Both the position numbers and the translations under genes were made by a program. Under the pieces are notes generated by a model. It was not told the origin of the DNA and searched no databases. It saw only the letters and a program-made list of their open reading frames with translations. DNA of 64,000 nucleotides. Origin: an uncultured Lachnospiraceae bacterium. Its GTDB lineage: Bacteria; Bacillota; Clostridia; Lachnospirales; Lachnospiraceae. The stretch spans positions 20,671-84,670 of the forward strand of contig CALWLI010000003.1 in NCBI GenBank assembly GCA_944381485.1, in the 5' to 3' direction. Within the stretch, counting starts at the first letter, position 1; each line of letters begins with the position of its first letter. Shown piece by piece: positions 12,146 to 30,031 of the stretch.

Positions 12146-12898
12146 ATGAATGAGATCAACAAGACAAAACTTAAACATAATCAGCCAAAGTATATTGAGA
12201 CATACAGAGAACTGGCAAAGCTTATAGAAAAGCTTAAGCCGGGGGATAAGCTCCCTACAGAGGAGGAGCTCACCCGAAGGTTCGGTGTATCCAGAAACAC
12301 TCTCAGACAAGCCCTACAGGTTCTTCACGAGGACAAGGTCATCTATAAGAGGAAGGGTGCGGGTACCTATGTATCAGGAACACCTTATCTCAGCAGACTT
12401 GATATATCCTACTACAGTGACACAGAGACTATACTGAAGCAGCTGGGCTTTGATGTGGAGGCTGAGGAGCTGGCTATCACATTTGAGGATGCGGACTGCC
12501 TGGTAAAGGATCTGCTCAGTCCCAGTGAGTTTTCTTCAATATTTTATATTTCCAGAACTTATGTTGACAAAAAGGATCACAATATAAAGTATTGCTTTTG
12601 TGAGGACTACATTCCTGTAACTGTCGAATTAGGGATAGACGTAAATAAGACCGATAAAAAAAGCTTCATTGAGGCATATGAAAGGATAGGCAGGGCCTCG
12701 ATATGCAATATTACAGCGGTTCCTGCAGGAAAATTCTACTCTGCAAAGCTGAACATTGAGAGCAAAGATCCCGTTCTTGTTTTACAGCAGGTCGTTTTGG
12801 ACGAAACCGGCAGAAGATGCTACATCAATAAGACTTATATGAATACCAATATTACAGAGTATTCCATCTTGGTAAACAGAAGAGAAGAAAAAAGATGA
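12146..12898 (+). CDS. GntR-family (HutC-type) transcriptional regulator
   Basis: 250 aa. Residues about 13-78 are a GntR winged helix: KLIEKLKPGDKLPTEEELTR, FGVSRNTLRQALQVL and YKRKGAGTYV. Residues about 95-245 form a UTRA ligand-binding domain (FYISRTYV, DPVLVLQQVV). Such proteins are usually repressors released by a small metabolite of the pathway they control. The ATG at 12146 has only a weak ribosome site, but a stop codon just upstream leaves no alternative. It is the first gene before ECF cassette 1 and next to the 33-bp palindrome. The ligand is probably a nucleoside, ribose phosphate or nucleobase derivative (inference). Confidence 0.9.
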   Translation: MNEINKTKLKHNQPKYIETYRELAKLIEKLKPGDKLPTEEELTRRFGVSRNTLRQALQVLHEDKVIYKRKGAGTYVSGTPYLSRLDISYYSDTETILKQLGFDVEAEELAITFEDADCLVKDLLSPSEFSSIFYISRTYVDKKDHNIKYCFCEDYIPVTVELGIDVNKTDKKSFIEAYERIGRASICNITAVPAGKFYSAKLNIESKDPVLVLQQVVLDETGRRCYINKTYMNTNITEYSILVNRREEKR

Positions 12899-12985
12899 TG
12901 TGAGTACTGAATAAGTAAAAAAGTTTAGAGTTTTGATGGGGAACTTTGAACTGAAAATATATAAATAAACAAAGGAGAAAGAAGT

Positions 12986-13582
12986 ATGGAAAAGAAACAT
13001 TCAATAAAAGATGATTTTAACATGTTGGCATTATTGATCATACCTGTTGCGGTTGCTGTAAACTTCGTTGGAGGACAGTTGGCTTCACTTCTTAAGCTTC
13101 CCATGTATCTTGATACCATAGGAACAATATTTGCAGGTATGCTTTGCGGACCTTGGGTAGGCGCTGTTGCCGGTGGTCTTACCAATGTTGTTACAGGTAT
13201 AGCAAACCCTGTAAACTTTGCTTTCATACCGGTCAACATTATTGCCGGACTTGTTGTCGGCGGTCTTGCCGTTCACAACATGTTTGAAAACTGGTGGAAG
13301 GCATTTATATCAACCATAATAATGGCTGTAATTTCCATCATCGTATCAGCTCCCATAGTAGTGCTTGTTTTCGGTGGAGTTACAGGAGGCGGTACCTCAT
13401 TGATCACAGCTGCAGCTATGGCGGCAGGTGCAAATATATGGGCTGCATTCTTTGGAACAGAGGGTATCTTCACAGTTTTGGACAGAATCATATCTTGCGT
13501 TATAAGCTATCTTGTAATCAAGGTTATTCCCCCTCGTACACTTGTTAAGTTCAGGTGCGGAAGCTGCTATATAAAAAAATAA
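12986..13582 (+). CDS. ECF transporter substrate-binding (S) component, cassette 1
   Basis: 198 aa with about six membrane segments. The start has a good AAAGGAG site. The sequence has the S-component style of small residues and a conserved N-terminal core, NFVGGQLASLLKLPMYLDT, that recurs almost unchanged in the cassette 2 S component (20577). It resembles the C. difficile CD3073-type putative S component. Within the membrane it captures the substrate for the EcfT-EcfA-EcfA' module encoded directly downstream. Neighbouring uridine phosphorylase and nucleoside hydrolase suggest a nucleoside-like substrate (inference). About 100 nt separate it from the T gene. Confidence 0.87.
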   Translation: MEKKHSIKDDFNMLALLIIPVAVAVNFVGGQLASLLKLPMYLDTIGTIFAGMLCGPWVGAVAGGLTNVVTGIANPVNFAFIPVNIIAGLVVGGLAVHNMFENWWKAFISTIIMAVISIIVSAPIVVLVFGGVTGGGTSLITAAAMAAGANIWAAFFGTEGIFTVLDRIISCVISYLVIKVIPPRTLVKFRCGSCYIKK

Positions 13583-13681
13583 TAGGAAATTAAATACAGA
13601 TAGTATTCCCCATTTAATTACTCTGAATGATGACATAGGCTGTCATAAAAAGGAAATTCTTTGAAAGATAAGGTGACATCC

Positions 13682-14488
13682 ATGGAAAAAACATATACTG
13701 AAAAAATTCAAATTCATAAGAAAAATAAGCTTGCAGGACTTTATCCTTCTGTAAAGGCTCTGGTGGTCTTGCTGTACGCTATATGCTGCTTTATTTTGAG
13801 CACTGTAAAGCTTACAGAATATGAGCTGGCTTTGCTTCTTATCCCATGGTTTCTTGTGATCCCTGTATTGTGTGCGGCAAGCGGTGCCTTCAATAAGTGC
13901 TTGAAGGCATTCAGGGCTGTATCTATAGTTGCGTTGGTTATTTTTCTTGCCCAGTCCTTACTGATACCGGGCGGAGAAACTGTACTTAAACTTGGCTTTC
14001 TGAAGGTAAGAGAGCAGGGCCTTCGTACGGCAATAACCCTCAGCTTTATGGTTATGGATATTGCAGGCATATTCGTCTGGATGTTCCAAACAACTGAAAA
14101 TAAAGAATTTTCCAGAGCTTTGGAGAATTCGGGTATGAATTACAAGGCAACATATGTATTCATATCGACTCTTCAGATGATAGAAATATTGGGTAAGAAC
14201 AGCAAGACTATAATGAATGCTCAGAGAGCAAGAGGAGTTGAGACTGAGGGTAATGTCATTGTCAGAATGAAGGCCTTCTTCCCCTCATTGGTTCCTCTTG
14301 TGCTCGGAGCAGTAATAAGCTCTGAGGAGAGAGTCCTTACTCTTGAGGCCAGAGGCTTCGACGTGGCTTGTGAAAAAACACACCTTTTCAACCTGGAAAA
14401 ATCAGGGATCGAGAAGCAGGTTACATTTATTGCAGTACTGATGACAATAGTTTTACTGGTATGGAGGATTTATTTATGGATTGCGTAA
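13682..14488 (+). CDS. ecfT: ECF transporter T component (EcfT), cassette 1
   Basis: 268 aa from the ATG at 13682, which follows AAGGTGA at 5 nt. An in-frame TTG at 13661 with AAGGA upstream is an alternative start. The N-terminal half is membrane-embedded. The cytoplasmic coupling helices carry the two EcfT motifs, NAQRARGVETEGN and LEARGFDVA, whose Ala-Arg-Gly triplets dock into the two ATPases. It overlaps the first ATPase gene by 13 nt. It links the S component to ATP hydrolysis. Confidence 0.9.
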   Translation: MEKTYTEKIQIHKKNKLAGLYPSVKALVVLLYAICCFILSTVKLTEYELALLLIPWFLVIPVLCAASGAFNKCLKAFRAVSIVALVIFLAQSLLIPGGETVLKLGFLKVREQGLRTAITLSFMVMDIAGIFVWMFQTTENKEFSRALENSGMNYKATYVFISTLQMIEILGKNSKTIMNAQRARGVETEGNVIVRMKAFFPSLVPLVLGAVISSEERVLTLEARGFDVACEKTHLFNLEKSGIEKQVTFIAVLMTIVLLVWRIYLWIA

Positions 14489-15333
14489 TAGAGCTTAAAA
14501 ATGTCACATACTCATATCCTCTTACAACTGTACCTGCAATAAAGGATCTGAGTGTGAAGATAGAAAAGGGAAAGTTTTACGGAGTTATAGGAGAAAACGG
14601 TTCAGGAAAAACCACATTCTGTGCTCTTTTAAGGGGATTTGCACCGAGCTTTTATAAAGGTGATCTGAGCGGCGAGGTCCTGGTTGAAGGTAGATCCACC
14701 CTTGAATATGGGCCTGGAGAGCTGGCCTCAAAAATAGGCTTTGTATTCCAGAATCCCTTCACCCAGATAAGTGGTGTAAAGGACACTGTTTTTGAGGAGG
14801 TGGCCTACGGCTTGGAAAACTTCGGCGTGCCTGTCGATGAGATAGAAAGAAGGGTAGTAGAGGTCATGAAGCTTACGGACATTGAGTCACTGGCTGAAAA
14901 GAACCCCTTCGATCTGTCGGGAGGACAGATGCAGAGGGTTGCGCTGGCGTCAGTCCTTGTAATTGAGCCTGAAATATTGGTTATAGATGAGCCTACAAGC
15001 CAGCTTGACCCTGAAGGCACAGAGAGCGTATTTAAGATAATAAGCAAGCTCAAGGAGAAGAAGAAAACTGTCATACTCGTGGAGCACAAAATCGACCTTA
15101 TTGCGGAGTACGCTGACGAAGTACTGGTATTTAAGGACGGAAGCCTTGTGGCCGCAGGAGACAAGCAGGAGATCTTGAGCGATATGTCACTTCTTGAAAA
15201 GGGCGTGGCTCTCCCTCAGGTCGCAATACTTGGAAACACATTAAAGGAAGAAGGTATTCCTCTGAAATACATACCTGTAACTGAAAAACAGGCAGAGGAA
15301 GTCTTTTCTGAATTGATAACGGGAAAGGAGTAA
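14476..15333 (+). CDS. ecfA1: ECF transporter ATPase A1 (canonical signature), cassette 1
   Basis: 285 aa. Walker A GENGSGKTT, Q-loop FQNPFTQ, signature LSGGQMQRVALA, Walker B ILVIDEPTSQLD and H-loop VEHK are all intact. The ATG at 14476 is preferred over that at 14461 because GGAGG lies 8 nt before it. The start lies inside the ecfT coding end (13-nt overlap), so the two are coupled. It pairs with the next gene product to form the ATPase heterodimer; its intact signature completes the ATP site formed by the partner's Walker A. Confidence 0.92.
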   Translation: MDCVIELKNVTYSYPLTTVPAIKDLSVKIEKGKFYGVIGENGSGKTTFCALLRGFAPSFYKGDLSGEVLVEGRSTLEYGPGELASKIGFVFQNPFTQISGVKDTVFEEVAYGLENFGVPVDEIERRVVEVMKLTDIESLAEKNPFDLSGGQMQRVALASVLVIEPEILVIDEPTSQLDPEGTESVFKIISKLKEKKKTVILVEHKIDLIAEYADEVLVFKDGSLVAAGDKQEILSDMSLLEKGVALPQVAILGNTLKEEGIPLKYIPVTEKQAEEVFSELITGKE

Positions 15334-15337
15334 AGGA

Positions 15338-16156
15338 ATGAAGGACTTAATACTTAAAGATGTGAGCTTCTCCTATCCCGGAGGATTTTTGGCGGTGGAC
15401 AATATAAACATGACTATAAAGTCAGGTGAAAATGTCGCCATAGTCGGACAGAACGGGGCAGGAAAGACGACCACAGTTAAAATGATGAATGGGCTTTTGA
15501 GACCTACCTCAGGGGATGTGATAATAGGGGATATGAATACAAAGGACTATACTACAGCTCAGGTTTCAAGAGTTGTAGGCTATGTCTTCCAGAACCCTGA
15601 TGATCAGATATTCCACTCCACTGTTGAGAGTGAGGTACGTTTCGGACCTGAAATGGCAAAGCTTTCAAATGAGGAGGTAGACAGCAGGGTAGAGTACGCC
15701 TTAAAAATAACAGGAATGGACAAGTTTAAGGAGGAAAACCCCTATAACCTACCTCTATCAATGCGAAAATTTGTAACCATTGCCGCGGTTATAGCGATGG
15801 ATACAGATGTTTTGATATTTGATGAGCCTACAGCGGGCCAGGATCTTGAGGGAAATAAGAGACTTTCCGAGATACTTAAAGAGCTCCATGAAAAGGGAAA
15901 AACCGTAATCACTATATCTCATGATATGGAATTTGTAGCCTCTAACTTTGAGAGAGTTATAGTAATGGCTAAGAAGAAGGTAGTTACCATGGGTACGCCT
16001 GAGGAAGTATTTTGGAATTTTGAGGCTCTGGAGAAGGCTATGCTTAAGCAGCCCTATGTCAGCAGGGTATGCAGGGCCCTGGGAGCCAAAGGCGAAATCA
16101 TAAGCATGGATGAAGCGGTAAATTTTTTAAAAAGCAGGTTAAAGAGGAATGCGTAA
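15338..16156 (+). CDS. ecfA2: ECF transporter ATPase A2 with degenerate signature, cassette 1
   Basis: 272 aa. Walker A GQNGAGKTT, Q-loop FQNPDDQ, Walker B VLIFDEPTAGQD and H-loop ISHD are present. Where LSGGQ is expected, the sequence reads NLPLSMRKFVTIA, so both signature glycines are gone. The same position is altered in the paralogue at 22909 (EIPYTIRKFVTIA), so this is an inherited trait and not a sequencing error. In an ABC dimer this would disable one of two ATP sites. It begins 4 nt after A1 and overlaps the MFS gene by 8 nt. Confidence 0.92.
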   Translation: MKDLILKDVSFSYPGGFLAVDNINMTIKSGENVAIVGQNGAGKTTTVKMMNGLLRPTSGDVIIGDMNTKDYTTAQVSRVVGYVFQNPDDQIFHSTVESEVRFGPEMAKLSNEEVDSRVEYALKITGMDKFKEENPYNLPLSMRKFVTIAAVIAMDTDVLIFDEPTAGQDLEGNKRLSEILKELHEKGKTVITISHDMEFVASNFERVIVMAKKKVVTMGTPEEVFWNFEALEKAMLKQPYVSRVCRALGAKGEIISMDEAVNFLKSRLKRNA

Positions 16157-17333
16157 TACTAACTACAAATTGATTGCTTTTTTGGCGTTTGCAATGTATT
16201 TTCTCACAGGTGCGGCGTGTATGCTTGTAGGAAGCAGCCTGCCGCAGCTCGTGGAAATGTACGGAAAACCGACAGAGACAGTAGTTCTTTTAGGCTCTGC
16301 CTATGCTCTGGGAAGAGTGTCGACAGCCTATATCATGGGAAGACTGGTTGAAAAGATAGGTCCTATCAAGGTTTTGCTCTGCGGAATTATTTTTGTATCA
16401 GTTTACTTTATAGGAGTACCTTCCATACATATATTCTTTGTAGGCATGATCTCCGCCTTTTTCGGAGGAGCGGGAATGGCCACTCAGGATACAGTTTGCC
16501 CTGTGCTTCTCAGCACTGCCTTCAAGAATAACTACGCAGGCTCTCTGAGCGCGGGCCAGGCACTTTTCGGCTTGGGAAATTTCGCCACACCCTTTATTAT
16601 CGGTGTGCTGCTCTCATCAGGCACAGAGTTTTTCTATGGGTATTATCTTTTGCTTTTAATACCGATAATCATGCTGATCTGCCTTCCCTTTGTTAAGCTT
16701 GACATGTCGGATCATGCAGCTGCCAAGGAGGAGGGGGTAAAGCCTCTGTATGCAAAAAATACTAAAACAGTGATCATCGCAGCCTTTGTTATCTGCGTTG
16801 TATACAGCGCTACGGTGAATGCCATCGGCCTTTATACTTCAAGCTATGCCCTTAGCATAGGAGTCTCTGAAGCCTCATCCGCATTTATGCTTACAGCTTA
16901 CAATATAGGGTGTACAGTAGGCTCCTTTGCATTTGTGATAATTCTTAGGAAAGTAAAGGCAAGGATCGTGCTTATAGCAAACAATGTTATGGCCCTTGTG
17001 GCCATTGTTGCGGCTCTTGCCCTCAACAACGTAACAATGTATTTTATTCTCCTTTTCTGTGCAGGATTCTTTTTGGGTGTCCTCTTCAGTGTCATTGTCA
17101 CTATCGGTACCAGGATAGGTTATAAGCGTATCAGCGTGGCAAGCTCACTGATCGCAATTGCCAGCGGCTTTTCAGATATTCTGACACCCATAGTTACAGG
17201 AAGGGCAATAGCGGTATTCGGGATAGGTTTTTCCTATCTGTATGTCATTATTATGATAGTACTTTGCATAGTTGCCGGAGTAATTTTGAAGATGAATACC
17301 ACTGAGGTAAGGCCGGCAGGACCGGAGGATTAA
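16149..17333 (+). CDS. Major facilitator superfamily transporter
   Basis: 394 aa with about twelve hydrophobic segments. The MFS loop 2-3 motif region appears as GSAYALGRVSTAYIMGRLVE, followed by KIGPIKVLL. A cytoplasmic loop near residue 190 (DHAAAKEEG) divides the two halves. The start overlaps the end of ecfA2 by 8 nt, so it is in the same operon as an ECF transporter and nucleoside enzymes. It could import a second nucleoside-like substrate or export a nucleobase or base-derived waste left after cleavage (inference). The direction and substrate cannot be read from sequence. Confidence 0.85.
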   Translation: MRNTNYKLIAFLAFAMYFLTGAACMLVGSSLPQLVEMYGKPTETVVLLGSAYALGRVSTAYIMGRLVEKIGPIKVLLCGIIFVSVYFIGVPSIHIFFVGMISAFFGGAGMATQDTVCPVLLSTAFKNNYAGSLSAGQALFGLGNFATPFIIGVLLSSGTEFFYGYYLLLLIPIIMLICLPFVKLDMSDHAAAKEEGVKPLYAKNTKTVIIAAFVICVVYSATVNAIGLYTSSYALSIGVSEASSAFMLTAYNIGCTVGSFAFVIILRKVKARIVLIANNVMALVAIVAALALNNVTMYFILLFCAGFFLGVLFSVIVTIGTRIGYKRISVASSLIAIASGFSDILTPIVTGRAIAVFGIGFSYLYVIIMIVLCIVAGVILKMNTTEVRPAGPED

Positions 17334-17349
17334 ACAAGGAGGAAACACT

Positions 17350-18108
17350 ATGGCGATTCAGAGCAAGGAAGTAACTAACAGCGAAGGAAAGCAATATCAT
17401 ATTTGCTGTGGAAAGGGTGATGTGGGAAGATACGTACTGCTTCCCGGAGATCCCTTCAGAACTGATATAATAGCAAAGCATTTAGATAACCCTGTACTTG
17501 TTGCCCACAACAGGGAGCACAAGACCTGGACAGGAAGCTTAAACGGAGTGAAGGTTTCCGTGACAAGTACGGGAATGGGCTGCCCTTCAACAGCTATAGC
17601 TTTGGAGGAGCTGATACACTGCGGAGCCGATACATTTATCAGAGTAGGCACCTGCGGACGTGTATGCCCCGAGAGCTATAACGAGGATCTGGAGGGCTGT
17701 ATTATCACAGGAGCTGTAAGGGATGAGGGAACAACAGTGCATTATGTTCCCATAGAGTATCCTGCCATGGCGGACAGACATGTGACAGACGCTCTGGCTA
17801 AGGCCTGCGAGGCAAAGGGTTACAATTTTGCGGAGGGTATAGCCCAGTCAAAGGATTCCTTCTATGGACAGCACGATCCTGACAGCATGCCTGCAAGTGA
17901 CAGGCTTCATGAGAGATGGAAGGCTTGGGAGAAGAGCGGTGTCATGGCCTCGGAGATGGAGACCGCAGCTCTTTTCATAATATCCTCCATAAGGGGAGCA
18001 AGAGCAGGCGCCATCATGGCATATGGAAGCATGAACGACCATACTATAGATCTGGCTTGCGATGCCATAAAAATATTGATTGAAAACGATAAGAAATCCG
18101 GCAAATAA
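17350..18108 (+). CDS. udp: Uridine phosphorylase (NP-I family)
   Basis: 252 aa, the length typical of uridine phosphorylase. Motifs: VLLPGDPFRTDIIA (phosphate site), STGMGCPSTAIALEEL, RVGTCGRV, the Udp-type KDSFYGQHDP, and the ribose-binding SEMETAALF. It reversibly splits uridine with phosphate into uracil and ribose 1-phosphate in the cytoplasm. A good AAGGAGG ribosome site lies upstream of the ATG. It is in the ECF1 operon, supporting nucleoside as transported substrate. A somewhat broader pyrimidine nucleoside range is possible. Confidence 0.9.
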   Translation: MAIQSKEVTNSEGKQYHICCGKGDVGRYVLLPGDPFRTDIIAKHLDNPVLVAHNREHKTWTGSLNGVKVSVTSTGMGCPSTAIALEELIHCGADTFIRVGTCGRVCPESYNEDLEGCIITGAVRDEGTTVHYVPIEYPAMADRHVTDALAKACEAKGYNFAEGIAQSKDSFYGQHDPDSMPASDRLHERWKAWEKSGVMASEMETAALFIISSIRGARAGAIMAYGSMNDHTIDLACDAIKILIENDKKSGK

Positions 18109-18150
18109 AGTAAGTTTAAATATAGTGAGCCTGATTTTAGGGAGAACAAA

Positions 18151-19101
18151 ATGGAAGCGAGAAAAAAGATTATAATCGATACTGACTGTGGCTCGGATGA
18201 TGCGATGGCCATTGCAATGGCCCTCAATGATCCCCATTATGAAATCCTTTTTTTTACAACGGTTTCAGGAAATGTTGAAGCTGCACAGGCGACAATAAAT
18301 ACACTTACAACCATAGAATATGCACAGAGCTATGAGCCCCCTGTATATATGGGTGCGAGAAAGCCCCTTCTTAAAAAACTTGAGTGCGCTCATGAGACTC
18401 ACGGAGAGGACGGAATGGGCGACATAGGCTTGGTTCCGAAGAGACTTAAAGCGAGACCTGAAAACGGCATACTGAAGCTTCTGGAGGCCCTCAGAGAGAG
18501 CAAACCGGGGGAGATAGACATCATTGCCCTGGGACCTCTCACAAATATTGCCATAGCTTTAAGGCTTGACGAAGAAGCTGTAAAAAAGGCCGGAAGGATA
18601 GTTGTCATGGGGACCGCAGGACTGGGAACAGGAAATGTCAGTCCGGTAGCCGAATTCAATATATGGCAGGATGCGGAGGCGGCAAAGCTTGTGACAGAGT
18701 CAGGCCTTGAGAACCTTATATATGTGGGCTGGGACGCTTGCCTTGAGGAGAGCATGCTTTCTCCTGATGAGATAAAAAAGATAAGAGAGAGCGGAAGTAT
18801 AGGAAAATTTGCAATAGACTGCAACAGAGTGCTTATGGAGATGAATAAGGACAGGTTCGGAGATTATTATCTGGACATGGCTGACCCTGCGGCTATGGCT
18901 GCCGCTCTGTATCCGGATTGCATTGAAGCCTGCGACAAGTATTACTGTGAGGTGGATGTGTCTGCGGGGCCTTCCTACGGAGGCGTCTTGGTTGACAAAT
19001 ACTATTTTTCAGGCAAGGAGCCCAATGCCTATATATGCAGCAAGCTCAAGGCAGACAAGTACAAGGAGTATATTTATAAAACTCTTAAGGTGGAGGATTA
19101 A
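18151..19101 (+). CDS. Nucleoside hydrolase (inosine/uridine-preferring type)
   Basis: 316 aa. The calcium-binding Asp cluster is intact at the N-terminus: IIIDTDCGSDDAMA. Further marks are MGARKPLL, HGEDGMGD, ALGPLTNIAIAL and VVMGTAGL. The enzyme hydrolyses ribonucleosides to free ribose and base. Having both this and a phosphorylase in one operon gives two ways to open the bond: one yields ribose for a ribokinase, the other ribose 1-phosphate. It could instead act on a modified nucleoside. The family is certain; the base preference is not. Confidence 0.9.
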   Translation: MEARKKIIIDTDCGSDDAMAIAMALNDPHYEILFFTTVSGNVEAAQATINTLTTIEYAQSYEPPVYMGARKPLLKKLECAHETHGEDGMGDIGLVPKRLKARPENGILKLLEALRESKPGEIDIIALGPLTNIAIALRLDEEAVKKAGRIVVMGTAGLGTGNVSPVAEFNIWQDAEAAKLVTESGLENLIYVGWDACLEESMLSPDEIKKIRESGSIGKFAIDCNRVLMEMNKDRFGDYYLDMADPAAMAAALYPDCIEACDKYYCEVDVSAGPSYGGVLVDKYYFSGKEPNAYICSKLKADKYKEYIYKTLKVED

Positions 19102-19124
19102 CAGCATACAGGAGGTGTTTTCAT

Positions 19125-20324
19125 ATGGGAACAGTTAAAGCTAAGTATTTGGTGGGACCTGCAGAGTGCAATGATTGCCATTCCGCACACATTTACAGCA
19201 CGGATTTTATCAATGCGGTAAGCAATGTTTTGGGTGAAACCATAGAGTGGGGAGAGATAGAGGATGTACAGAAACAGTCGCTTTCACTGTTTTTCATCGC
19301 CTCGGGAGGATCAGAGCAGTCATTCCTTAAGATATTCAGAGATTTTAAGGAGCCCTATATACTCATGACAACACCCGGCTACAACTCTCTGGCCGCATCA
19401 ATGGAGATAATGGGGTATCTGGAAGAAAACGGATATAAGGGTGAGATCCTGCATGGCACCCCTGAGGCCGTTGCAAAAAGGCTGGCTGAGCTTAAGAGGA
19501 TAGCTGACGCCAAGGTAAAGCTCTCCAAAATGAGGCTCGGATGCATAGGAGAGCCCGGAGGACTTATAGCCAGCGATGCAGACGGGGATAAATTGCGGGA
19601 AAAAACCGGAATGAGTCTTGTTCCTGTTGACATCAATGAGCTCATAAGTGAGTACGGAAAGGGAGGATATCCCGAGAATAAATATACCGAGGAACTGAAG
19701 AAAAAGGGATATAAGCCTGAGGAGACGGAGAAGGCTTTGGCGGTATATGGCGCTCTCAAGCGTCTGATAGAGAAGTACAGCCTGGATGCGGTGACTGTCA
19801 GATGCTTTGATCTTCTTGATGCTATCCATACGACAGGATGTCTTGGTCTTGCTATCTTAAATGCTGAAGGTATCCCTGCAGCCTGTGAGGGAGATAAGAA
19901 GAGCATGATAAGCATGTGTGTGCTGAATGCGCTCACAGGGGGATCTTCATTTATGGCAAATCCCAGCTGTATGGACCCGGAGAAGAATGAGATAATATTC
20001 GCCCACTGCACTTTGCCCATAGACATGCCCGACAGCTACAGTCTCACCACTCATTTTGAGTCAGGAATAGGTGTGGCTGTCACCTGCGACATAGCGCCTC
20101 AACCCATGACTGTGTTTAAGTGTGACGACAAGCTTGAAAGGCATTATGCGGGAAGGGCACAGCTTATAGAGACCATGCACAGGGATAATCTCTGCCGCAC
20201 CCAGATGAAGCTTAAGCTTGAAGAGGGCACAAAATACTTTGCTTCGGCCCCTATAAGCAACCACCATATGATCTGTAAGGGTGATTATAAGGAACTTATA
20301 GACGAGTTTTTCAACAGTTTATAA
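19125..20324 (+). CDS. L-fucose/L-arabinose isomerase-like protein
   Basis: 399 aa. The C-terminal half matches the sugar-isomerase (COG2407-like) family: AACEGDKKSMISMCVLNAL, with the Glu of CEGD as likely metal ligand, then ALTGGSSFMANPS and IIFAHCTLP with a His ligand. The usual Asp in the GGxxFxxD segment is replaced (FMANPS). The N-terminal region (LFFIASGGSEQSF) is more divergent. Known members interconvert aldoses and ketoses in the cytoplasm using Mn. As the last gene of the operon it may act on the pentose released from nucleosides (inference). The ribosome site AGGAGGTG is strong. Confidence 0.72.
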   Translation: MGTVKAKYLVGPAECNDCHSAHIYSTDFINAVSNVLGETIEWGEIEDVQKQSLSLFFIASGGSEQSFLKIFRDFKEPYILMTTPGYNSLAASMEIMGYLEENGYKGEILHGTPEAVAKRLAELKRIADAKVKLSKMRLGCIGEPGGLIASDADGDKLREKTGMSLVPVDINELISEYGKGGYPENKYTEELKKKGYKPEETEKALAVYGALKRLIEKYSLDAVTVRCFDLLDAIHTTGCLGLAILNAEGIPAACEGDKKSMISMCVLNALTGGSSFMANPSCMDPEKNEIIFAHCTLPIDMPDSYSLTTHFESGIGVAVTCDIAPQPMTVFKCDDKLERHYAGRAQLIETMHRDNLCRTQMKLKLEEGTKYFASAPISNHHMICKGDYKELIDEFFNSL

Positions 20325-20346
20325 ATAGGATAGTAAAAAAAAGAAT

Positions 20347-20375
20347 GCTTCCCGGCTAAGGCCGGGAAGCTTTTT
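20347..20375 (+). terminator. Terminator of the gntR-ECF1 operon
   Basis: GCTTCCCGGC pairs with GCCGGGAAGC around a short loop (TAAG) and is followed by TTTTT, a textbook intrinsic terminator. Confidence 0.92.
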
Positions 20376-20493
20376 ATGTGATAAATAAAACGATTAACTA
20401 TAATTGAAGACAAAGCTGATATTTGTCTTAAAAACGCTTAAATCAGGTAAATATATACAAAATTATCGAATTATTATTAGCAATATAAGCTAA

Positions 20494-20522
20494 TTGTCTA
20501 AATATATATATGGTTGTATAAT
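20494..20522 (+). promoter_or_regulatory. Promoter of the ECF2 operon
   Basis: TTGTCT (20494-20499), a 17-nt spacer and TATAAT (20517-20522). The transcript would start near 20529, about 48 nt before the S-component ATG. This placement argues against the upstream TTG at 20514 as a start codon. Confidence 0.72.
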
Positions 20523-20576
20523 AAAAACATCAGATTGGTAAAACGTTTATCCAATAGAAAAGAGGAGGGTTTTAGT

Positions 20577-21164
20577 ATGAAACAATGGAATAAGCTTACA
20601 ATTTTCTTGCTTCCCATCGGTATTGCTGTCAATGTGGTGGGCGGCCAGCTGGCAATTATGCTGAAGCTGCCTGTTTATCTGGATTGTATAGGTACATTCA
20701 TAGTGGGTTCGCTGTGCGGAATCGTTCCCGGACTTATAGTGGCTGTCCTTACTCAGATACTTAATTCCATCACTTTGCCTACAAATCTTTTGTATATCGA
20801 GATAGGTATGCTTTTTGCGGTACTTGCACATTTCTTTGCAAAGTACGAACGTTTCAAGACGATCCCGAGAACTATATTGAACGGAATCCTTGTGGCCTGT
20901 GTCAGCTGCTGTCTTGCGGTACCCACTACAGCATTTTTGCTTGGCGGTTTCGTAGGTACAGGCGCATCAGCTATAGTTACTGCCCTTATGGCGGCAGGAT
21001 GGTCGGTTTTACCTGCAACCTTTGTCAGTGAGTTGGTTACCGAGATGATGGATAAGGTCATCTGCATGATCATTATATTCTTCATTTTGAAATCAATACC
21101 TGAGAGATTAATAGTAAAGCTTCCGAATGCAAAATTCTTTGTTAAGGATCTTGAAGAAGAATAA
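20577..21164 (+). CDS. ECF transporter S component, cassette 2
   Basis: 195 aa with about six membrane segments. It is a paralogue of the cassette 1 S component: compare NVVGGQLAIMLKLPVYLDC here with NFVGGQLASLLKLPMYLDT there. The ATG at 20577 follows GAGGAGGG; an in-frame TTG at 20514 overlaps the -10 box and is rejected. The loops differ from cassette 1, which suggests a related but different ligand. A terminator-like hairpin follows it, so it may be made in excess over the T and A subunits. Confidence 0.87.
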   Translation: MKQWNKLTIFLLPIGIAVNVVGGQLAIMLKLPVYLDCIGTFIVGSLCGIVPGLIVAVLTQILNSITLPTNLLYIEIGMLFAVLAHFFAKYERFKTIPRTILNGILVACVSCCLAVPTTAFLLGGFVGTGASAIVTALMAAGWSVLPATFVSELVTEMMDKVICMIIIFFILKSIPERLIVKLPNAKFFVKDLEEE

Positions 21165-21168
21165 TATG

Positions 21169-21202
21169 AAGGCAAGGGGGCAGATGCTTCCTTGCCTTTT
21201 TA
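21169..21202 (+). terminator. Hairpin with T-run between S2 and ecfT2 (attenuator)
   Basis: AAGGCAAGG (21169-21177) pairs with CCTTGCCTT (21190-21198), followed by a T-rich tail. It probably reduces expression of the downstream T and A genes relative to the S component. Confidence 0.75.
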
Positions 21203-21261
21203 AGTCTTATACTGCATAAGGAGGAAAAGGGATTTCCCGAAGGGAGATACCGAGGATAATA

Positions 21262-22059
21262 ATGGATAATATTACATTTGCTAATCAGTTTTTAAATCCG
21301 AGAAAATACGGCAATATTATTTTGGACCTTAATCCTATCAACAGGCTGAATATTTTTGTGGCTCTCGGCATCAGTACCTTTTTTGTGAACAACTATTGGT
21401 ATGGCTTTGCCCTTGTGCTTTTGTTTTTTGTTATAGCTGCGGTTGCGGGAAGACTTAAGAGATATTTCTCAGTATATTGGAAGGTCCTCTTGCTTTTCGG
21501 ATTGTTTTTGTTTGTCATAAAGGCGGCGTTCTCGCCGGGAGAGCATATGATATTTCAGCTTGCGGGAATACATATCTCTACTGAGAGCATAAACTCAGCC
21601 TTAAGCCTTATCTCAAAGGTGCTTTCTTTTTCGGGAGCCATAGTTTTGTTTGTCCAGACGACCGAGTGGGAGGATTTCACCTATGCTTTGGAACACGCGG
21701 GAGTCCCACATGTGGTTTCCTTTGTGGTACTCTCCTCATTTCAGACTATCTCTGATCTGGGAAAGAGCGCTCAGGTCATTATGGAGTCTCAGAAAGCCAG
21801 AGGAATAGAGACCGACGGCAATCTCGTAAAGCGCGCAAAGGCATATATACCTGTAATGGGTCCCCTGGTATTGAACGCTATATCAAGCGTGGAGGAAAAA
21901 TCCATAGCCATGGATGCCAGAGCTTTCTCCGCGCCGGTGGCCCATACACATTTGATGGAGCTTCCGGAAGTTACGAAGTCAGAGAAGGCCTTTGTTGTCT
22001 TTATTGATCTGCTGCTTCTTGCAACAATTATCGGGAGGATCGTTATATGGCTTTTATAG
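21262..22059 (+). CDS. ecfT: ECF transporter T component (EcfT), cassette 2
   Basis: 265 aa. It has a membrane-embedded N-terminal half and the two EcfT coupling motifs, ESQKARGIETDGN and MDARAFSAP; the second carries Ala-Arg-Ala in place of Ala-Arg-Gly. Start ATG with CGAGG at 6 nt. It overlaps the ATPase gene by 13 nt, exactly the overlap seen in cassette 1, so the two cassettes share organisation as well as sequence. Confidence 0.9.
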   Translation: MDNITFANQFLNPRKYGNIILDLNPINRLNIFVALGISTFFVNNYWYGFALVLLFFVIAAVAGRLKRYFSVYWKVLLLFGLFLFVIKAAFSPGEHMIFQLAGIHISTESINSALSLISKVLSFSGAIVLFVQTTEWEDFTYALEHAGVPHVVSFVVLSSFQTISDLGKSAQVIMESQKARGIETDGNLVKRAKAYIPVMGPLVLNAISSVEEKSIAMDARAFSAPVAHTHLMELPEVTKSEKAFVVFIDLLLLATIIGRIVIWLL

Positions 22060-22892
22060 AATTGAATGATGTTACTTACACGTATCCGCTGATGAAGGAA
22101 GCGGCTCTTAAAAATATAAGTTACAAATTTGAAAAGGGAAAGTTTTACGGTGTAATAGGAGAGAATGCGGGAGGAAAGACGACTCTCTGCAACCTGCTCA
22201 GGGGTTTGGTTCCCCATTTCTATAAGGGGAAGCTTAAAGGCAGTGCAACTATCAACGGAGAAGATATAAAAACAATAGATGTGGACAAACTGTCCACTCA
22301 GATCGGATACATTTTTCAGAATCCCTTTACCCAGATAAGCGGAGTAAAAAAATCCGTGTTTGAGGAGATAGCCATTGGACTTGAAAATCTGGGAGTTGAA
22401 AAGGGAGAGATAATTGAGAGGGTTTTAAAAATAGCAAAGCTTGTAAATATAGAGAGTCTGCTACAGAAGAATCCCAACGAGCTTTCGGGAGGTCAGAGAC
22501 AGAGGGTGGCCTTTGCCTCGGTAATCGCCATGGACACAGATACCTTCGTCATAGATGAGCCCACGTCACAGCTTGACCCTGACGGTACGGAAGCGATCTT
22601 TGAGATAATACACACCCTGAAGGAACAGGGAAAGACCATAGTCTTGGTAGAACACAAAGTGGATCTTTTGGCCGAGTATGCGGATGAAATGCTGGTCATG
22701 AACAAGGGGAATTTGATAGCAGGAGGCCCTACCAAGGAAGTTCTAAGCGATCTTTCTCTTCTTGAAAAGGGTGCAATGCTTCCTCACACAGTGCTTTTCA
22801 ACCACGAGCTGAAGCTTAAGGGCGTGGAATTGGAACATGTTCCTGTGACAAAAGAGGACTGTATTTCACAGCTTAAGCTGAGGATGAAGTAA
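22047..22892 (+). CDS. ecfA1: ECF transporter ATPase A1 (canonical signature), cassette 2
   Basis: 281 aa. Walker A GENAGGKTT, Q-loop FQNPFTQ, signature LSGGQRQRVAFA, Walker B FVIDEPTSQLD and H-loop VEHK are intact. GGGAGG lies 9 nt before the ATG. It is the orthologue-like counterpart of the gene at 14476: both contain VFEE(V/I)A and FTQISGVK. It pairs with the signature-defective partner encoded next. Confidence 0.92.
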   Translation: MAFIELNDVTYTYPLMKEAALKNISYKFEKGKFYGVIGENAGGKTTLCNLLRGLVPHFYKGKLKGSATINGEDIKTIDVDKLSTQIGYIFQNPFTQISGVKKSVFEEIAIGLENLGVEKGEIIERVLKIAKLVNIESLLQKNPNELSGGQRQRVAFASVIAMDTDTFVIDEPTSQLDPDGTEAIFEIIHTLKEQGKTIVLVEHKVDLLAEYADEMLVMNKGNLIAGGPTKEVLSDLSLLEKGAMLPHTVLFNHELKLKGVELEHVPVTKEDCISQLKLRMK

Positions 22893-22908
22893 TTAAGGGA
22901 GGAAGACT

Positions 22909-23718
22909 ATGAATCAAATTCTTTTGGAAAATGTGAGCTTTCGCTATCCCAACGGCTTTCTCGCCAATGAAAATCTGAACCTTGCCATAGGTCAGGATGA
23001 ATGTGTGGCCATAGTCGGACAAAACGGAGCCGGGAAGACCACGGCGGTAAAGCTTATGAACGGCTTAAACAAGCCTACTGAGGGCAATGTGCTTGTCAAC
23101 GGCATGAACACAAAGGACTACACTACAGCTCAGATAGCCAAATATGTGGGTTATGTATTTCAGAATCCTGACGATCAGATATTTAACCAGAGCGTATACG
23201 ATGAGATCGCATACATGCCCAGGTATTACAAAAAATCTGAAAAGGAGATCAAAAAGAGCGTCGAGGAAGCTGCGGACATTATGAATATTCGCGTCTTTTT
23301 GAAGAGCAACCCCTTTGAGATACCCTATACCATAAGAAAATTTGTCACCATTGCCGCCATACTTGTGACTGAGCCTCAGTATATGATACTGGATGAGCCC
23401 ACAGCGGGACAGGACCTCAACGGGACAAAGACACTTTCGGATCTTTTGACTGTTCTTCATGACAAGAATATCGGTGTGATCACAATAACTCACGACATGG
23501 AGTTCGTGGCTGACAATTTTAAGAGAGTGATAGCCATGGCCCACAAGCACATAATTGCGGACGGAAGTGCAAAGGATATTTTCTCTGACGATGAGGTTAT
23601 AAAAGAGAGCAAGATAAAGAGGACGGATATGGGTATCATAGGCTCGGAGCTGGGCCTTGGAAAGGATATCCTAAATGCTCGGGAGCTTGTCTCTGCTTTA
23701 GACGGAAAGATAAATTAG
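22909..23718 (+). CDS. ecfA2: ECF transporter ATPase A2 with degenerate signature, cassette 2
   Basis: 269 aa. Walker A GQNGAGKTT, Q-loop FQNPDDQ, Walker B YMILDEPTAGQD and H-loop ITHD are present, but the ABC signature reads EIPYTIRKFVTIA instead of LSGGQxxRVxIA. This matches the loss in the paralogue at 15338, with a different replacement at the lost positions and the same RKFVTIA after them. A strong GGGAGG ribosome site precedes it. It forms the ATPase heterodimer with the product of 22047, presumably with a single competent ATP site. Confidence 0.92.
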   Translation: MNQILLENVSFRYPNGFLANENLNLAIGQDECVAIVGQNGAGKTTAVKLMNGLNKPTEGNVLVNGMNTKDYTTAQIAKYVGYVFQNPDDQIFNQSVYDEIAYMPRYYKKSEKEIKKSVEEAADIMNIRVFLKSNPFEIPYTIRKFVTIAAILVTEPQYMILDEPTAGQDLNGTKTLSDLLTVLHDKNIGVITITHDMEFVADNFKRVIAMAHKHIIADGSAKDIFSDDEVIKESKIKRTDMGIIGSELGLGKDILNARELVSALDGKIN

Positions 23719-23730
23719 GAGGAAGCGTAT

Positions 23731-25014
23731 ATGGAAAAGGACAGAAGCTGGATACGGGAGACGATAGAAAAGAACAAAGAAAAATATATTGATTGTCTTC
23801 TCAAACTCGCCTCCATAGATACTCATGACATAGGTCATGGAATAGAGGGAGGACTGGAGGCCGCAGGGCAGGAGTACCTTATAGAGCTATTTAAGGAGAT
23901 GAAGGCCGACAGCATAGAGAGAGATCCTCTTAAGGAGGAGAGCATACTGAAGTGCAAAGAGCTGTACCGCGAGGGGAATACAGGACATAATTACGACAAT
24001 CGTTTCAATGTCTATGCTCAGCTAAAGGGCAAAAGTGAAAAGTCTATTCTGTTTAACGGACATATAGACCATATGCCTGCAGACAATCTGAAGGCCTGGA
24101 GCATAGATCCTCTCAAGCCTGAGGTTATTGAAAACAGGATAACAGGCCTTGGTGTGGCCGATATGAAGTCGGGGCTTATGGCTTCCATAATGGCCTCCAT
24201 GGTATTCAGGGATGCCGGAAAGGATTTCCCCATAACCGTAAAATATGCGGCGGTATGTGATGAGGAGGGAGGCGGAAACGGATCTCTCTGTGCTGCCATG
24301 AGCGGTGTGAAGGCTGATGCGGTAGTAGTGTGCGAGCCTACAAATTATGAGCTTATAGCCGCCCACATGGGATGGGTATTCTTCCAAGTTGAAGTGGACG
24401 GAATAGCAGTACATTCAGGACTTAAGCTTAAAGGTGTGAACGCCATAGAGAAGGCATACCTTCTCATGGAGGCAATAGATGAGCTGGAGCACAGATGGCT
24501 TTTAAAGTACAAGCATCAGCTGCTTCCGCCGCCCTCCAGCAATGTGGGTGTGATATACGGAGGCGAGGCCGGATCCACCATTCCCGATTACTGCTGCTTT
24601 AAGACCTGCGTCCACTATCTACCCGGTCTCATGGATCATGATCAGGTAGTAAAGGAATATACGGATGCCATCTTAAAGCGCTGCGAGGGCGATGAATGGC
24701 TCAGCGAGCACAAGCCTAAAATAAGTATATATCAGACGGGAAATCCTTTTGAGATGGACCTTGATCATCCCTTCGTGGATGCGTTTAAGACAGCTTACGA
24801 CAAGGCCATGGGACATCCTGTAAAGATCGTAGGCTCTCCTGCGGGATGCGATTCCAGGACCTGGAGAAACATAGTAAAATGCCCTACTCTTCAATACGGA
24901 CCCGGATCCTTGGAACAGTGCCACGCTGTGGATGAATATGTCACTGTGGAACAATATTTGGACGCTATCAATATTTACGTCAACCTGATCCTTGAGTGGG
25001 CTGAGAAAGAATAA
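23731..25014 (+). CDS. M20-family metallohydrolase (ArgE/DapE/Acy1-like)
   Basis: 427 aa. Metal and catalytic residues of the M20 family are visible: H111 and D113 in FNGHIDHM, bridging D144 in VADMKSG, the catalytic Glu pair E178-E179 in CDEEGGG, EPT, and the late His in EQCHAVDEY. Family members cleave amide or ureido bonds (deacylases, N-carbamoyl-amino-acid amidases, ureidopropionase relatives). It ends in TAATG with the amidohydrolase gene, so the two are co-translated. Together they resemble a ring-opening plus ureide-cleaving pair (inference). It is not an exopeptidase with a signal peptide; it is cytoplasmic. Confidence 0.85.
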   Translation: MEKDRSWIRETIEKNKEKYIDCLLKLASIDTHDIGHGIEGGLEAAGQEYLIELFKEMKADSIERDPLKEESILKCKELYREGNTGHNYDNRFNVYAQLKGKSEKSILFNGHIDHMPADNLKAWSIDPLKPEVIENRITGLGVADMKSGLMASIMASMVFRDAGKDFPITVKYAAVCDEEGGGNGSLCAAMSGVKADAVVVCEPTNYELIAAHMGWVFFQVEVDGIAVHSGLKLKGVNAIEKAYLLMEAIDELEHRWLLKYKHQLLPPPSSNVGVIYGGEAGSTIPDYCCFKTCVHYLPGLMDHDQVVKEYTDAILKRCEGDEWLSEHKPKISIYQTGNPFEMDLDHPFVDAFKTAYDKAMGHPVKIVGSPAGCDSRTWRNIVKCPTLQYGPGSLEQCHAVDEYVTVEQYLDAINIYVNLILEWAEKE

Positions 25015-26273
25015 TGGGAAACATTATATTAAGGGGAGGCTACCTTATTGACCCCTCGGAGAATATATGCGGAGAGAGAGACCTTCTGATATCAGACGGG
25101 CATATAGAGGAAGTAGGCTTCGACATACAGGCTGAAAAAGGTGACCGGGTGATCGACTGCTCTCATTATGAGCTGTGGCCCGGTCTGGTGGATATGCATC
25201 TGCATGTGGCGGATCTGTTTGAGATAAGCACAAACACAGTCTACTGCGCAGCTCAGGACGGCGTGACTACAGCCCTGTCTCCCGGGGCAGGGAACACCTT
25301 TATGGCTCCTGCTCTTTTGGGAGCTGAGACAGACAGAGGATTGCCCATAAATGTCGGCGTATATCTGGGAGCGCTCAATGTCTTGGGCTCACAGCTTGAT
25401 GATGAGGAGCTTATAGCCCTATTTAAAGGGGAACTTAAGGACGAGCTGAAATGGGAAAAGCTTTCCCACAACAGATTTACCAATTCCTTTGCCCAATACT
25501 GCATAGGCCTTAAGGAACATATGGGGCATTTCCTGCTGACTGATGAGCAGATAGAGAGACTGTATCATATCACCTCTGAATCAGGCCTTGTATTTATGTC
25601 ACATACGCAGGATCCTGAACACTCGGCCCGTCTGGTTGAGCTTTCAAAGGGAAGACAAATACATCTGGGCCATACAAACGCGGCAGGCTGCGGCACTCAC
25701 GCCGAGGCTGAAGAGGGGATGAAGGCTGTGATCGGCCTATGCAAACACCCCAATGTCACAGGCGAGTTTGTGACTACCATGCTGAGGAGAGGTCTGGGGA
25801 ATCTTGAGGGACTTAAGATGACAAAGGCTTCAAGGCAAAGGGCATTGGACGCACTAAACGAAAAGATTGTGGACATACTTGTATCTGACGGACAGAACCA
25901 GTCCACCATGAAAGGCTTTGGGGATACGAGAGACAATATTCCATGCATATTGGAGCTGGTTGAGGAAGGTGTACTTGATAAGTCGGCCGCAGTTGCAGCT
26001 ATGACTTCAAATCCCTGCAGGTACTTGGCTGAAGTAACCGGCTGCGATGAATGGAAGTGTAAATATGGAACCCTGAGGGAGGGGGCCTACGCCAATATTT
26101 TGATAGTCGATACGGAAAACAAGAGAGCTTCCTACACTATAACCAACGGAGAGCCGGTTTCCTTTGAGGGAAGATACATAAGAGGACACGGATACGCCGG
26201 AAACTGGGTGAGCAGGTTCGGAACATCAAGAACGGGTGTGGGCGATGCACCTATGTATTCAACTGACAATTGA
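25014..26273 (+). CDS. Amidohydrolase of the dihydroorotase/hydantoinase type
   Basis: 419 aa. The metal site is recognisable: H62 and H64 in DMHLHV, a lysine in GLKEHMG at the place where dihydroorotase-type enzymes carry carboxylated Lys, His in FMSHTQD and in LGHTNA, and Asp in VSDGQNQ. Such enzymes open cyclic amides such as dihydropyrimidines and hydantoins. The start overlaps the M20 stop by 1 nt. The PyrC/AllB/HyuA branch cannot be chosen by eye; the SD(H)xP motif of those enzymes is altered, so a new substrate is possible. Confidence 0.82.
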   Translation: MGNIILRGGYLIDPSENICGERDLLISDGHIEEVGFDIQAEKGDRVIDCSHYELWPGLVDMHLHVADLFEISTNTVYCAAQDGVTTALSPGAGNTFMAPALLGAETDRGLPINVGVYLGALNVLGSQLDDEELIALFKGELKDELKWEKLSHNRFTNSFAQYCIGLKEHMGHFLLTDEQIERLYHITSESGLVFMSHTQDPEHSARLVELSKGRQIHLGHTNAAGCGTHAEAEEGMKAVIGLCKHPNVTGEFVTTMLRRGLGNLEGLKMTKASRQRALDALNEKIVDILVSDGQNQSTMKGFGDTRDNIPCILELVEEGVLDKSAAVAAMTSNPCRYLAEVTGCDEWKCKYGTLREGAYANILIVDTENKRASYTITNGEPVSFEGRYIRGHGYAGNWVSRFGTSRTGVGDAPMYSTDN

Positions 26274-26324
26274 TTTATCGTCATAATGACATATATAAAA
26301 GATTATTTGCTAAGGAGAAAAAAG

Positions 26325-27071
26325 ATGAAAAAAGTATTATTGGCCGGAGAATCATGGATGAGCTATACAACTCACGTTAAAGGCTTTGACAGCTTCTACA
26401 CATCTGTCTATGAGACAGGAGAAAAATGGCTTGTTAAGGCCCTCAAAAACGGAGGATATGATGTGACCTTTATGCCAAACCATATCGCTCCTGAGGAATT
26501 CCCCTTTGAGGTGGAGGAGCTTAACAAATATGACTGTGTCATACTCTCGGACATAGGAGCCAACACACTGCTCCTTCCCCCTGCGACTTTCAGCAGAAGC
26601 GAAAAGATGCCTAACAGGGCAAAGACAATAAGGGACTATGTATTAAATGGAGGAAGTCTTCTTATGGTAGGCGGATACCTCACCTTCTCAGGAGTCGATG
26701 CAAAGGGAAAATGGCATGATACTGCAGTCCAGGATGTGCTTCCTGTCGAAGTCCTCACGGTCGATGACAGAATGGAGCGCTGTGAGGGAGTAAAGCCTGT
26801 GACTGTAAAGGAGCATGAGGCCCTTTCCGGCGTGACAGGTGAGTGGCCTGATGTGTTGGGCTATAACAAAACCGTGGCCAAACAGGATGCGGACGTTGTG
26901 GCGACAGTTGAGGGTAATCCCTTTATAGCCTTCGGAAGCTACGGAAAAGGCAGAAGCGCGGTATTTACGACAGACTGTGCTCCTCACTGGGCTCCTCCGG
27001 AGTTCTGCGAGTGGGAGTGCTATGACAGACTTTGGCAGGGTATCGTTGACTGGCTGACGAAAGACAGATAA
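26325..27071 (+). CDS. GATase1-like protein without the catalytic cysteine
   Basis: 248 aa from the ATG at 26325, preceded by AAGGAG at 7 nt; an ATG at 26286 lacks a ribosome site. The fold is that of class I amidotransferase-like proteins: N-terminal KKVLLAGESWM, YDCVILSDIGAN, and DYVLNGGSLLMVGGYLTF. In active amidotransferases the elbow after GG is a Cys; here it is GGYL, so glutaminase activity is unlikely. A second region, FGSYGKGRSAVFTTDC, resembles the trimerisation-type domains of beta-galactosidases. It ends the ECF2 operon. Function unknown. Confidence 0.7.
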   Translation: MKKVLLAGESWMSYTTHVKGFDSFYTSVYETGEKWLVKALKNGGYDVTFMPNHIAPEEFPFEVEELNKYDCVILSDIGANTLLLPPATFSRSEKMPNRAKTIRDYVLNGGSLLMVGGYLTFSGVDAKGKWHDTAVQDVLPVEVLTVDDRMERCEGVKPVTVKEHEALSGVTGEWPDVLGYNKTVAKQDADVVATVEGNPFIAFGSYGKGRSAVFTTDCAPHWAPPEFCEWECYDRLWQGIVDWLTKDR

Positions 27072-27152
27072 GCTCCCCTTATGGGATTAGTTAAAAAGTC
27101 CTTCTCAATCGACGGAAAGATAAATTTAGTGTGGATTTTGGGGGGTTTCATT

Positions 27153-27181
27153 TTGACTGAATGCTCAAATACGGATATACT
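27153..27181 (+). promoter_or_regulatory. Promoter of the lacI-rbsK-yjjG unit
   Basis: TTGACT (27153-27158), a 17-nt spacer and TATACT (27176-27181), about 75 nt before the start codon. No clear terminator separates it from the upstream ECF2 operon, so some read-through is possible. Confidence 0.68.
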
Positions 27182-27255
27182 TAATAGTAACTGAAGCGCG
27201 CATAGATTTGAGACAGACTCCATTAAAATAACAAATTTAACCGGAGGCCGATACT

Positions 27256-28278: not shown

Positions 28279-28335
28279 ATAAACTTACATAGGTTTTTTG
28301 GACTTGAAAAATAAAAGGTGGAGGTGTTTGCTGTA

Positions 28336-29941: not shown

Positions 29942-29996
29942 GATATATTTATGCTTTGCAGGCTTTTAACGCTCATTTTTTGATCAGTTTGTTCTA

Positions 29997-30025: not shown

Positions 30026-30031
30026 AAAAAT

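Follow-up and report, generated by a model that had tools for sequence, protein, structure and literature searches.

Energy-coupling factor (ECF) transporters are mainly known for the uptake of trace vitamins and metals. Here, we asked what is imported by two complete ECF transporters that are encoded in tandem, each together with enzyme genes, at positions 12146-27071 of a 64,000-nucleotide stretch of DNA from an uncultured Lachnospiraceae bacterium (contig CALWLI010000003.1, assembly GCA_944381485.1). This whole stretch is called the window. According to our best explanation, which sequence comparison makes reasonably probable, the first gene set (cassette 1) would encode a dedicated group I importer of nucleosides and the second one (cassette 2) another ECF importer, which uses a substrate-binding component (S) of the same wider family. 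When cassette 1 is considered separately, nucleoside import appears likely because of the nucleoside hydrolase and phosphorylase genes next to the transporter, and specialisation on thio-nucleosides is possible.

To define the gene content of both cassettes, gene families were assigned with Pfam and NCBIfam profile searches. On the + strand, cassette 1 starts with a GntR/UTRA regulator (12146..12898; PF00392, PF07702), which probably controls this cassette. It is followed by the substrate-binding component S1 (12986..13582), the transmembrane coupling component T1 (13661..14488; PF02361, 66.5 bits), the ATPases A1 (14461..15333; TIGR04520, 237.1 bits, below the cut-off of 315) and A1' (15338..16156; TIGR04521, 239.2 bits, below the cut-off of 330), a major facilitator superfamily (MFS) transporter (16149..17333; PF07690, 86 bits), a uridine-phosphorylase-type enzyme (17350..18108; TIGR01718, 243.3 bits, below the cut-off of 280.3), a nucleoside hydrolase (18151..19101; PF01156, 264.8 bits, cut-off 34.2) and a protein with L-arabinose/L-fucose isomerase fold (19125..20324; Foldseek match, no Pfam family). 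Cassette 2, on the same strand, consists of S2 (20514..21164), T2 (21262..22059; PF02361, 98.3 bits), A2 (22047..22892; TIGR04520, 222.7 bits, below 315), A2' (22909..23718; TIGR04521, 204.5 bits, below 330), an M20 deacylase of the ArgE/DapE type (23731..25014; TIGR01910, 239 bits, cut-off 217.6), an amidohydrolase (25014..26273; PF01979, 49.7 bits) and a GATase1_like protein (26286..27071; PF07090, 353.6 bits). All four ATPases carry PF00005 and have TIGR04520 or TIGR04521 as best NCBIfam match, each under the cut-off of the model. Of the features of group I ECF transporters, a dedicated T encoded with S, two ECF-type ATPases per operon and, for S1, the S fold described below are present.

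A sequence-only reading of this locus had proposed two complete ECF sets with differing enzyme cargo, and this was borne out by the coordinates and the profile matches; for each gene it named, the + strand has an open frame at the given position. Its claim of equal 13-nt overlaps between the T and A genes is exact for cassette 2 (22047-22059), but for cassette 1 it depends on the A1 start chosen. From the first ATG (14461), the overlap is 28 nt; an overlap of 13 nt requires the in-frame ATG at 14476 as start of A1, which, judged by eye, fits A2 better. Cassette 1 recurs in other genera (for instance in loci L039, L040, L057 and L064) and cassette 2 in one (L043), so that the gene arrangement is more than chance. 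In addition to the genes listed by the sequence-only reading, we observed the MFS gene, a gene for a TudS-related desulfidase of the CD3072 family on the - strand (11365..11922; NF045597, 169.9 bits, above the cut-off of 130) and, downstream on the + strand, a LacI/RbsR-like regulator, which probably controls cassette 2 (27256..28278; NF047341, 271.8 bits, below the cut-off of 382). A ribokinase-like PfkB kinase (28318..29265, +; TIGR02152, 235.2 bits, below the cut-off of 299.65) and a YjjG-type noncanonical pyrimidine nucleotidase (29252..29941, +; TIGR02254, 189.4 bits, cut-off 159.9) close the unit.

What do the S components reveal about the substrate? The NCBIfam model NF045596 ('CD3073 family putative ECF transporter S component') recognises both proteins, but its cut-off of 180 bits is reached by neither S1 (126.2 bits) nor S2 (91.7 bits). 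S1 exceeds the cut-off of PF12822 (35.8 bits, cut-off 30.7), whereas S2 does not (19.9 bits), and the assignment of S2 as S component is therefore based on NF045596 and its operon position. No other NCBIfam S model, including those of vitamin transporters, matched S1 or S2 at E <= 0.01. The structure model of S1 (pLDDT 82.7, from a 59-row alignment) has the predicted fold of ECF S components. In Foldseek, ranks 1-16 were ECF S subunits with probabilities of 0.94-1.00 and E-values of 0.02-0.22, none reaching E <= 0.001; among them, the title of 4huq_S says no more than 'a transporter'. The pattern LxLPxxLDxIGT was invariant or nearly so across 30 aligned S proteins. Vitamin riboswitches were not found in the cassettes at the gathering threshold, and a permissive search yielded only four sub-threshold sRNA matches. 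A vitamin transport function signalled by a riboswitch was therefore rejected for both cassettes. Together, the absence of matches to vitamin S models and to vitamin riboswitches argues indirectly that S1 and S2 do not bind a vitamin.

More detailed information came from the genes that surround relatives of S1. A scan of named genomes, made with an alignment of 11 S proteins, yielded 533 confirmed S1-like loci; the best 80 of these were surveyed and 79 were scored (the S of L085 was lost in the selection of open reading frames). Marker profiles were built from survey-locus proteins that had first been found by BLAST with the window's own enzymes. The survey overlaps with the sample of family genomes (L052 corresponds to genome G117), and L068 and L040 are one contig. 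Here, 67 of the 79 loci encode a nucleoside hydrolase or phosphorylase at a distance of up to 6 kb from S, and these 67 include Lachnospiraceae, Spirochaetota, Erysipelotrichaceae, Bacillales, Enterococcus and Chloroflexota. Among the 32 close relatives of S1 (at least 59% identity), the hydrolase was present at this distance in 24, the phosphorylase in 24 and either enzyme in 27; TudS-related (22), CRP-type (18), TenA (10), isomerase (11) and MFS genes (18) were also seen. Among the distant relatives (below 50% identity, 47 of 48 loci), 40 had the hydrolase, seven the phosphorylase and 40 either of them; a LacI gene was present in 13.

As control, we used the PF02361 T components of 40 family genomes, including the window's own. 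They occupy 92 places, 55 of which were fetched; the window's two T genes and 35 of the 36 places scoring at least 155.9 bits, presumed to be housekeeping modules, were left out. Five of the 55 T loci carried an S1-like S (L180, L181, L185, L186, L187), and a hydrolase or phosphorylase was found in four of these five vs. none of the 50 others. If the positives were distributed at random, all four would be among these five with a probability of 5/341055 (about 1.5e-5). The four are places that another search route had already found. Individual loci show the same association. L037 has a continuous row of deoC, a phosphorylase relative of 63% identity, A, A', S and T. Three of 48 matching plasmid records were inspected: an annotated Enterococcus raffinosus plasmid carries S-T-A-A'-nucleoside hydrolase, an annotated Haladaptatus caseinilyticus plasmid carries hydrolase, T, ATPase, hydrolase and S, and a Haladaptatus pallidirubidus plasmid has two nucleoside deoxyribosyltransferases near S, with no T annotated nearby. 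Since relatives of S1, in diverse bacteria and in some archaea, usually adjoin enzymes that cleave nucleosides, they appear to be importers of nucleosides and not of vitamins. The proposal of nucleoside uptake by cassette 1 was thus supported by the conserved neighbourhoods (67/79 loci, the control and the annotated plasmids), and the neighbourhood search that had been suggested as a check confirmed that S1-like cassettes co-occur with nucleoside enzymes in other genomes.

The adjoining enzymes might, however, act only downstream of importers that carry nucleobases, free pentoses or a vitamin-like nucleoside such as nicotinamide riboside. We consider this unlikely. It is consistent with the ribokinase-like genes near 20 of the 47 distant loci and with a related S group standing beside a 3H-domain (NiaR-like) regulator and/or a phosphorylase, but this group forms a separate 13-row clade (100/100) in the S tree. 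Moreover, the hydrolase and the phosphorylase act on intact nucleosides, so that import of bases or pentoses only would leave them without a role. In eight loci (L048, L049, L050, L051, L140, L143, L180, L218), operons of S, T and a fused ATPase were seen with the 3H-domain regulator and/or a nucleoside-phosphorylase-like gene; these operons possibly take up nicotinamide riboside or niacin.

The S tree (120 rows, midpoint root), for which the program warned of long branches meeting, represents S1 and S2 by their G117 copies (L038_9326 and L038_16854). In this tree, a 36-row clade (100/96) comprises the close relatives of S1 plus a small sister group, and the Chloroflexota rows make up another clade (100/99). 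S2 clusters on long branches with L043, L185 and L047 (99/90), and its deeper placement is weak (80/19). S1 and S2 share about 32-34% identity, and since they fall in different clades, a recent tandem duplication of the cassettes was rejected. The best matches of S2 in the class (G557, G406, G560) have a hydrolase (L207-L209), and all three stand on the S1 side of the tree.

Could the S1 family instead import queuosine or another 7-deazaguanine compound, as QrtT does, with a QueK-like hydrolase? QueK belongs to the nucleoside hydrolase family, and this counts in favour of the idea. Furthermore, six solo S genes (L046, L141, L146, L210, L212, L214) are each flanked by a hydrolase and, on the opposite side, by a small gene common to all six, which corresponds to the order queK-qrtT-queL published in PMC11477304. 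These six are presumed to be QrtT genes. Nevertheless, import of queuosine by the S1 family appears highly improbable. The presumed QrtT rows constitute their own 8-row clade (100/99), apart from S1 under midpoint rooting, and a QueL-type third gene, sought with a profile from one presumed QueL (L141), was near none of the 79 S1-like loci. The identity of this third gene is itself weak, as the L141 copy reaches 43.6 bits with the radical SAM model RaSEA (cut-off 212.15) and has no Pfam family. Finally, cassette 1 contains a uridine-phosphorylase-type enzyme, and a preQ1 riboswitch was not matched there.

From the observed gene content, conservation and association of cassette 1, we infer its substrate, the direction of transport, the enzyme activities and a desulfuration step. 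Cassette 1 would be a group I ECF importer of pyrimidine nucleosides, probably including thio-modified ones from tRNA turnover. By analogy with ECF transporters in general, S1 would bind the nucleoside outside, and T1 together with the A1/A1' ATPases would drive its uptake. Inside the cell, the phosphorylase, for which uridine phosphorylase 3qpb was the best match in the Protein Data Bank (PDB; 248.5 bits), would release the base and ribose-1-phosphate. Alternatively, the hydrolase would yield the base and a free pentose, which the isomerase-fold protein may feed onward, and the TudS-related enzyme would remove sulfur from thiopyrimidines.

The presence of the TudS-related gene near S in 22 of the 32 close relatives suggests thiolated pyrimidine nucleosides as substrate. 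Six residues of its product (Cys10, Cys52, Glu54, Ser111, Ser113 and Cys114) are kept in all 24 aligned copies, which are the window protein and 23 locus copies. A PDB sequence match to the window protein was not obtained at E <= 1. At least 9 of 23 TudS-family genes from 299 genomes lie within 2 kb of an S of the S1-like set, and among the matches listed, all five S genes over the NF045596 cut-off have a TudS-related neighbour; a sixth, in G695, is outside this count. The desulfidase family has other partners, too. In L220, L222 and L223, we observed TudS-related genes beside sugar-type ABC transporter genes, with no S component. A specificity for 2-thio compounds was weakened by the TudS kinetics in PMC10611767.

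Two other neighbours were considered as substrate clues. The TenA-like proteins encoded near ten S1 relatives keep the equivalents of Cys135 and Glu205, and all ten have Asn at the position of B. subtilis TenA Asp44. In thiaminase, this Asp contacts amino groups of the ligand and the D44A exchange lowers the activity, according to PMC5623701. As a suggestion from sequence, an Asn-bearing TenA could fit a 4-oxo pyrimidine with a 5-aminomethyl group. A role of TenA in the window's own pathway was rejected, since none was found in its own genome (91% complete). The model of the isomerase-fold protein (pLDDT 89.3) matched L-arabinose isomerase in Foldseek (E 1.9e-18, TMq 0.82), and its relatives amount to 13 non-self matches in 291 class genomes, seven at 36-41% identity and six weaker. 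As substrate clue, this protein was rejected because the six of the seven closer matches that were fetched (L133-L138) show no S, hydrolase or phosphorylase marker.

Several observations weigh against nucleoside import by cassette 1 and its relatives. The MFS gene within the operon could itself carry nucleosides. Twelve of the 79 loci lack both enzymes (L054, L059, L061, L066, L077, L106, L107, L109, L111, L116, L126, L131); for five of them (L059, L061, L077, L111, L131), the contig measures 3-8 kb. An ADP-ribosylglycohydrolase-family gene is present in L116, deoC in L106, and SIS, PfkB and BtpA genes in L126. Locus counts also overstate independence because many rows are near-copies. In the control, L185 has an S1-like S and a PfkB kinase but neither enzyme, and in the S2 clade, L043, L185 and L047 are all without hydrolase or phosphorylase, L185 and L047 having PfkB-type kinases. 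Some S relatives give weak folate-family S matches (18.9-26 bits, cut-off 60). As to sulfur, TudS was near none of the 47 distant relatives, seven of the other 14 TudS-family genes were fetched (L220-L226) and had no S nearby, and PMC10611767 describes, for the TudS enzymes studied, a preference for 4-thio-UMP and no specific binding of 2-thio compounds.

The S family also has other cargo. In L042 and L126, S-T-A-A' was observed with SIS, PfkB, BtpA and amidohydrolase genes. In the Bacillaceae loci L098 and L103, it stands with a nucleoside hydrolase, an amidohydrolase and an Asp/Glu/hydantoin-racemase-family gene; sugar-acid-type kinase and aldolase-like genes were recognised there by eye. 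The substrate in these loci may be an unusual nucleoside-like compound. S1-like domains were also seen in open frames of about 570-1,630 residues (L148, L149, L150, L151 and other long matches). These domains were excluded from the transporter counts and the fetched L148-L151 were left out of the tree; they may be S-fold receptors of the type treated in PMC11109136, or other fusions.

Cassette 2 is rare and belongs to a different S clade from cassette 1. It would be the second dedicated ECF importer of the wider S family, for a compound that probably bears an amide and that the M20 enzyme and the amidohydrolase would hydrolyse. L043, too, carries the set S2-T2-A-A'-M20-amidohydrolase-GATase-LacI, together with an SGNH hydrolase and a second M20 gene, and G117 shares the cassette at DNA level. 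The LacI copy beside the L043 relative is 71% identical, and the amidohydrolase has relatives of 62% identity in L043 and 59% in L132. The sequence-only reading suggested that cassette 2 takes up a base-derived cyclic amide. In line with this view, the substrate would be a hydantoin or dihydropyrimidine, whose ring the amidohydrolase would open before M20 completes the hydrolysis. For this proposal, one may cite that an amidohydrolase with dihydroorotase/hydantoinase-like N-terminal matches shares an operon with M20, also in L043, and that the L132 relative adjoins M20 and a PucR-type regulator (the stretch fetched there showed no S marker). However, the 25 NCBIfam matches shown for the amidohydrolase cover, nearly all, only about the first 120 residues and are all far under cut-off, and the M20 enzyme exceeds the cut-off of an ArgE/DapE deacylase model. 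The amidohydrolase is also scarce (two of 391 class genomes at E <= 1e-30, the window's own included, besides L043). The cyclic amide proposal thus found no independent support, the enzymes point to no one substrate, and we regard hydantoin or dihydropyrimidine import as improbable.

How did this unit reach its present location? Window 13200-30100 is 98-100% identical, by 500-base bins, to G117, another genome (species) of the genus. At the left edge, identity is 97% in the 13000 bin and 91-96% in the 100-base bins of 12900-13200; the flanks show 69-76% on the left and 63-93% on the right (500-base bins, aligned bases only). Both S genes occur in only two of 25 genus genomes (the window's and G117), 16 of which reach 90% completeness or more with no more than 5% contamination. 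A CD3073-type S is present in one further genome. Seven congeners besides G117 were searched for thrS. In four of them (L235-L238), a gene that we take to be of the engB type lies just before thrS, at the place that the island occupies in G117. L234 gave an unclear picture, and for L239 and L240, the only match was a thrS relative of 45-47% identity. In the window, thrS is preceded by a T-box leader (30046-30249) at the right-hand border of the shared block. The block represents either a recent exchange of the whole unit or an artefact of metagenome assembly (one chimeric assembly), and two real copies are favoured because of the up to 2% differences inside it.

Taken together, cassette 1 would belong to a predicted nucleoside branch of ECF transporters. 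A wider proposal is that this nucleoside-dedicated branch is widespread in several bacterial phyla and haloarchaea, that cassette 1 and its orthologues are specialised for modified pyrimidine nucleosides which arise when tRNA is broken down, with the desulfidase acting on thio groups and, in ten relatives, a TenA-like enzyme, and that the two-cassette block of about 17 kb moves between species. We advance this combination tentatively and as a whole hold it to be rather doubtful. When the open-access literature was searched for a nucleoside ECF transporter, titles and abstract openings showed no precedent. If a dedicated nucleoside branch does exist, a function could be assigned to many genes that so far carry only the annotation 'ECF transporter S component', and the carriers of this branch would gain a high-affinity nucleoside route and a candidate path from outside thio-nucleosides to plain uracil. 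The substrate question is testable with one S protein and a small nucleoside panel.

Compared with known systems, both cassettes share the S-T-A-A' plan, and S1 the predicted S fold, with the vitamin ECF transporters (RibU, ThiT, BioY, FolT, PanT). They differ from them in that no vitamin S model matched S1 or S2 at E <= 0.01 and no vitamin riboswitch was found in the cassettes. With the thiouracil/4-thio-UMP desulfidase TudS, the window protein shares three cysteines, one Glu and two Ser, which match the residues named in PMC10611767 by spacing only. In contrast to TudS, it is a predicted desulfidase of the separate CD3072 family, and Arg17 and Tyr18 of TudS_A correspond, by residue number only, to Lys17 and Val18. 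As in the NF045596 (CD3073) and NF045597 (CD3072) families, the S and TudS-related genes are close together; unlike that S family, S1 and S2 stay below its cut-off, and for its TudS-only S genes (e.g. L032, L034-L036, L213, L215, L216, L219), neither a T component nor a nucleoside enzyme is encoded in the surrounding 6 kb. The QrtT of Clostridioides difficile takes up preQ1, Q and queuine according to PMC11477304. For this system, our comparison uses the presumed QrtT rows and not the published sequence; they match NF045596, the same model as S1 and S2, with about 99 bits. Both systems encode the S component beside a nucleoside hydrolase, but QrtT is a solo S that works on a shared module with a lyase partner, whereas S1 and S2 have no such partner and are each encoded with a dedicated T-A-A' set.

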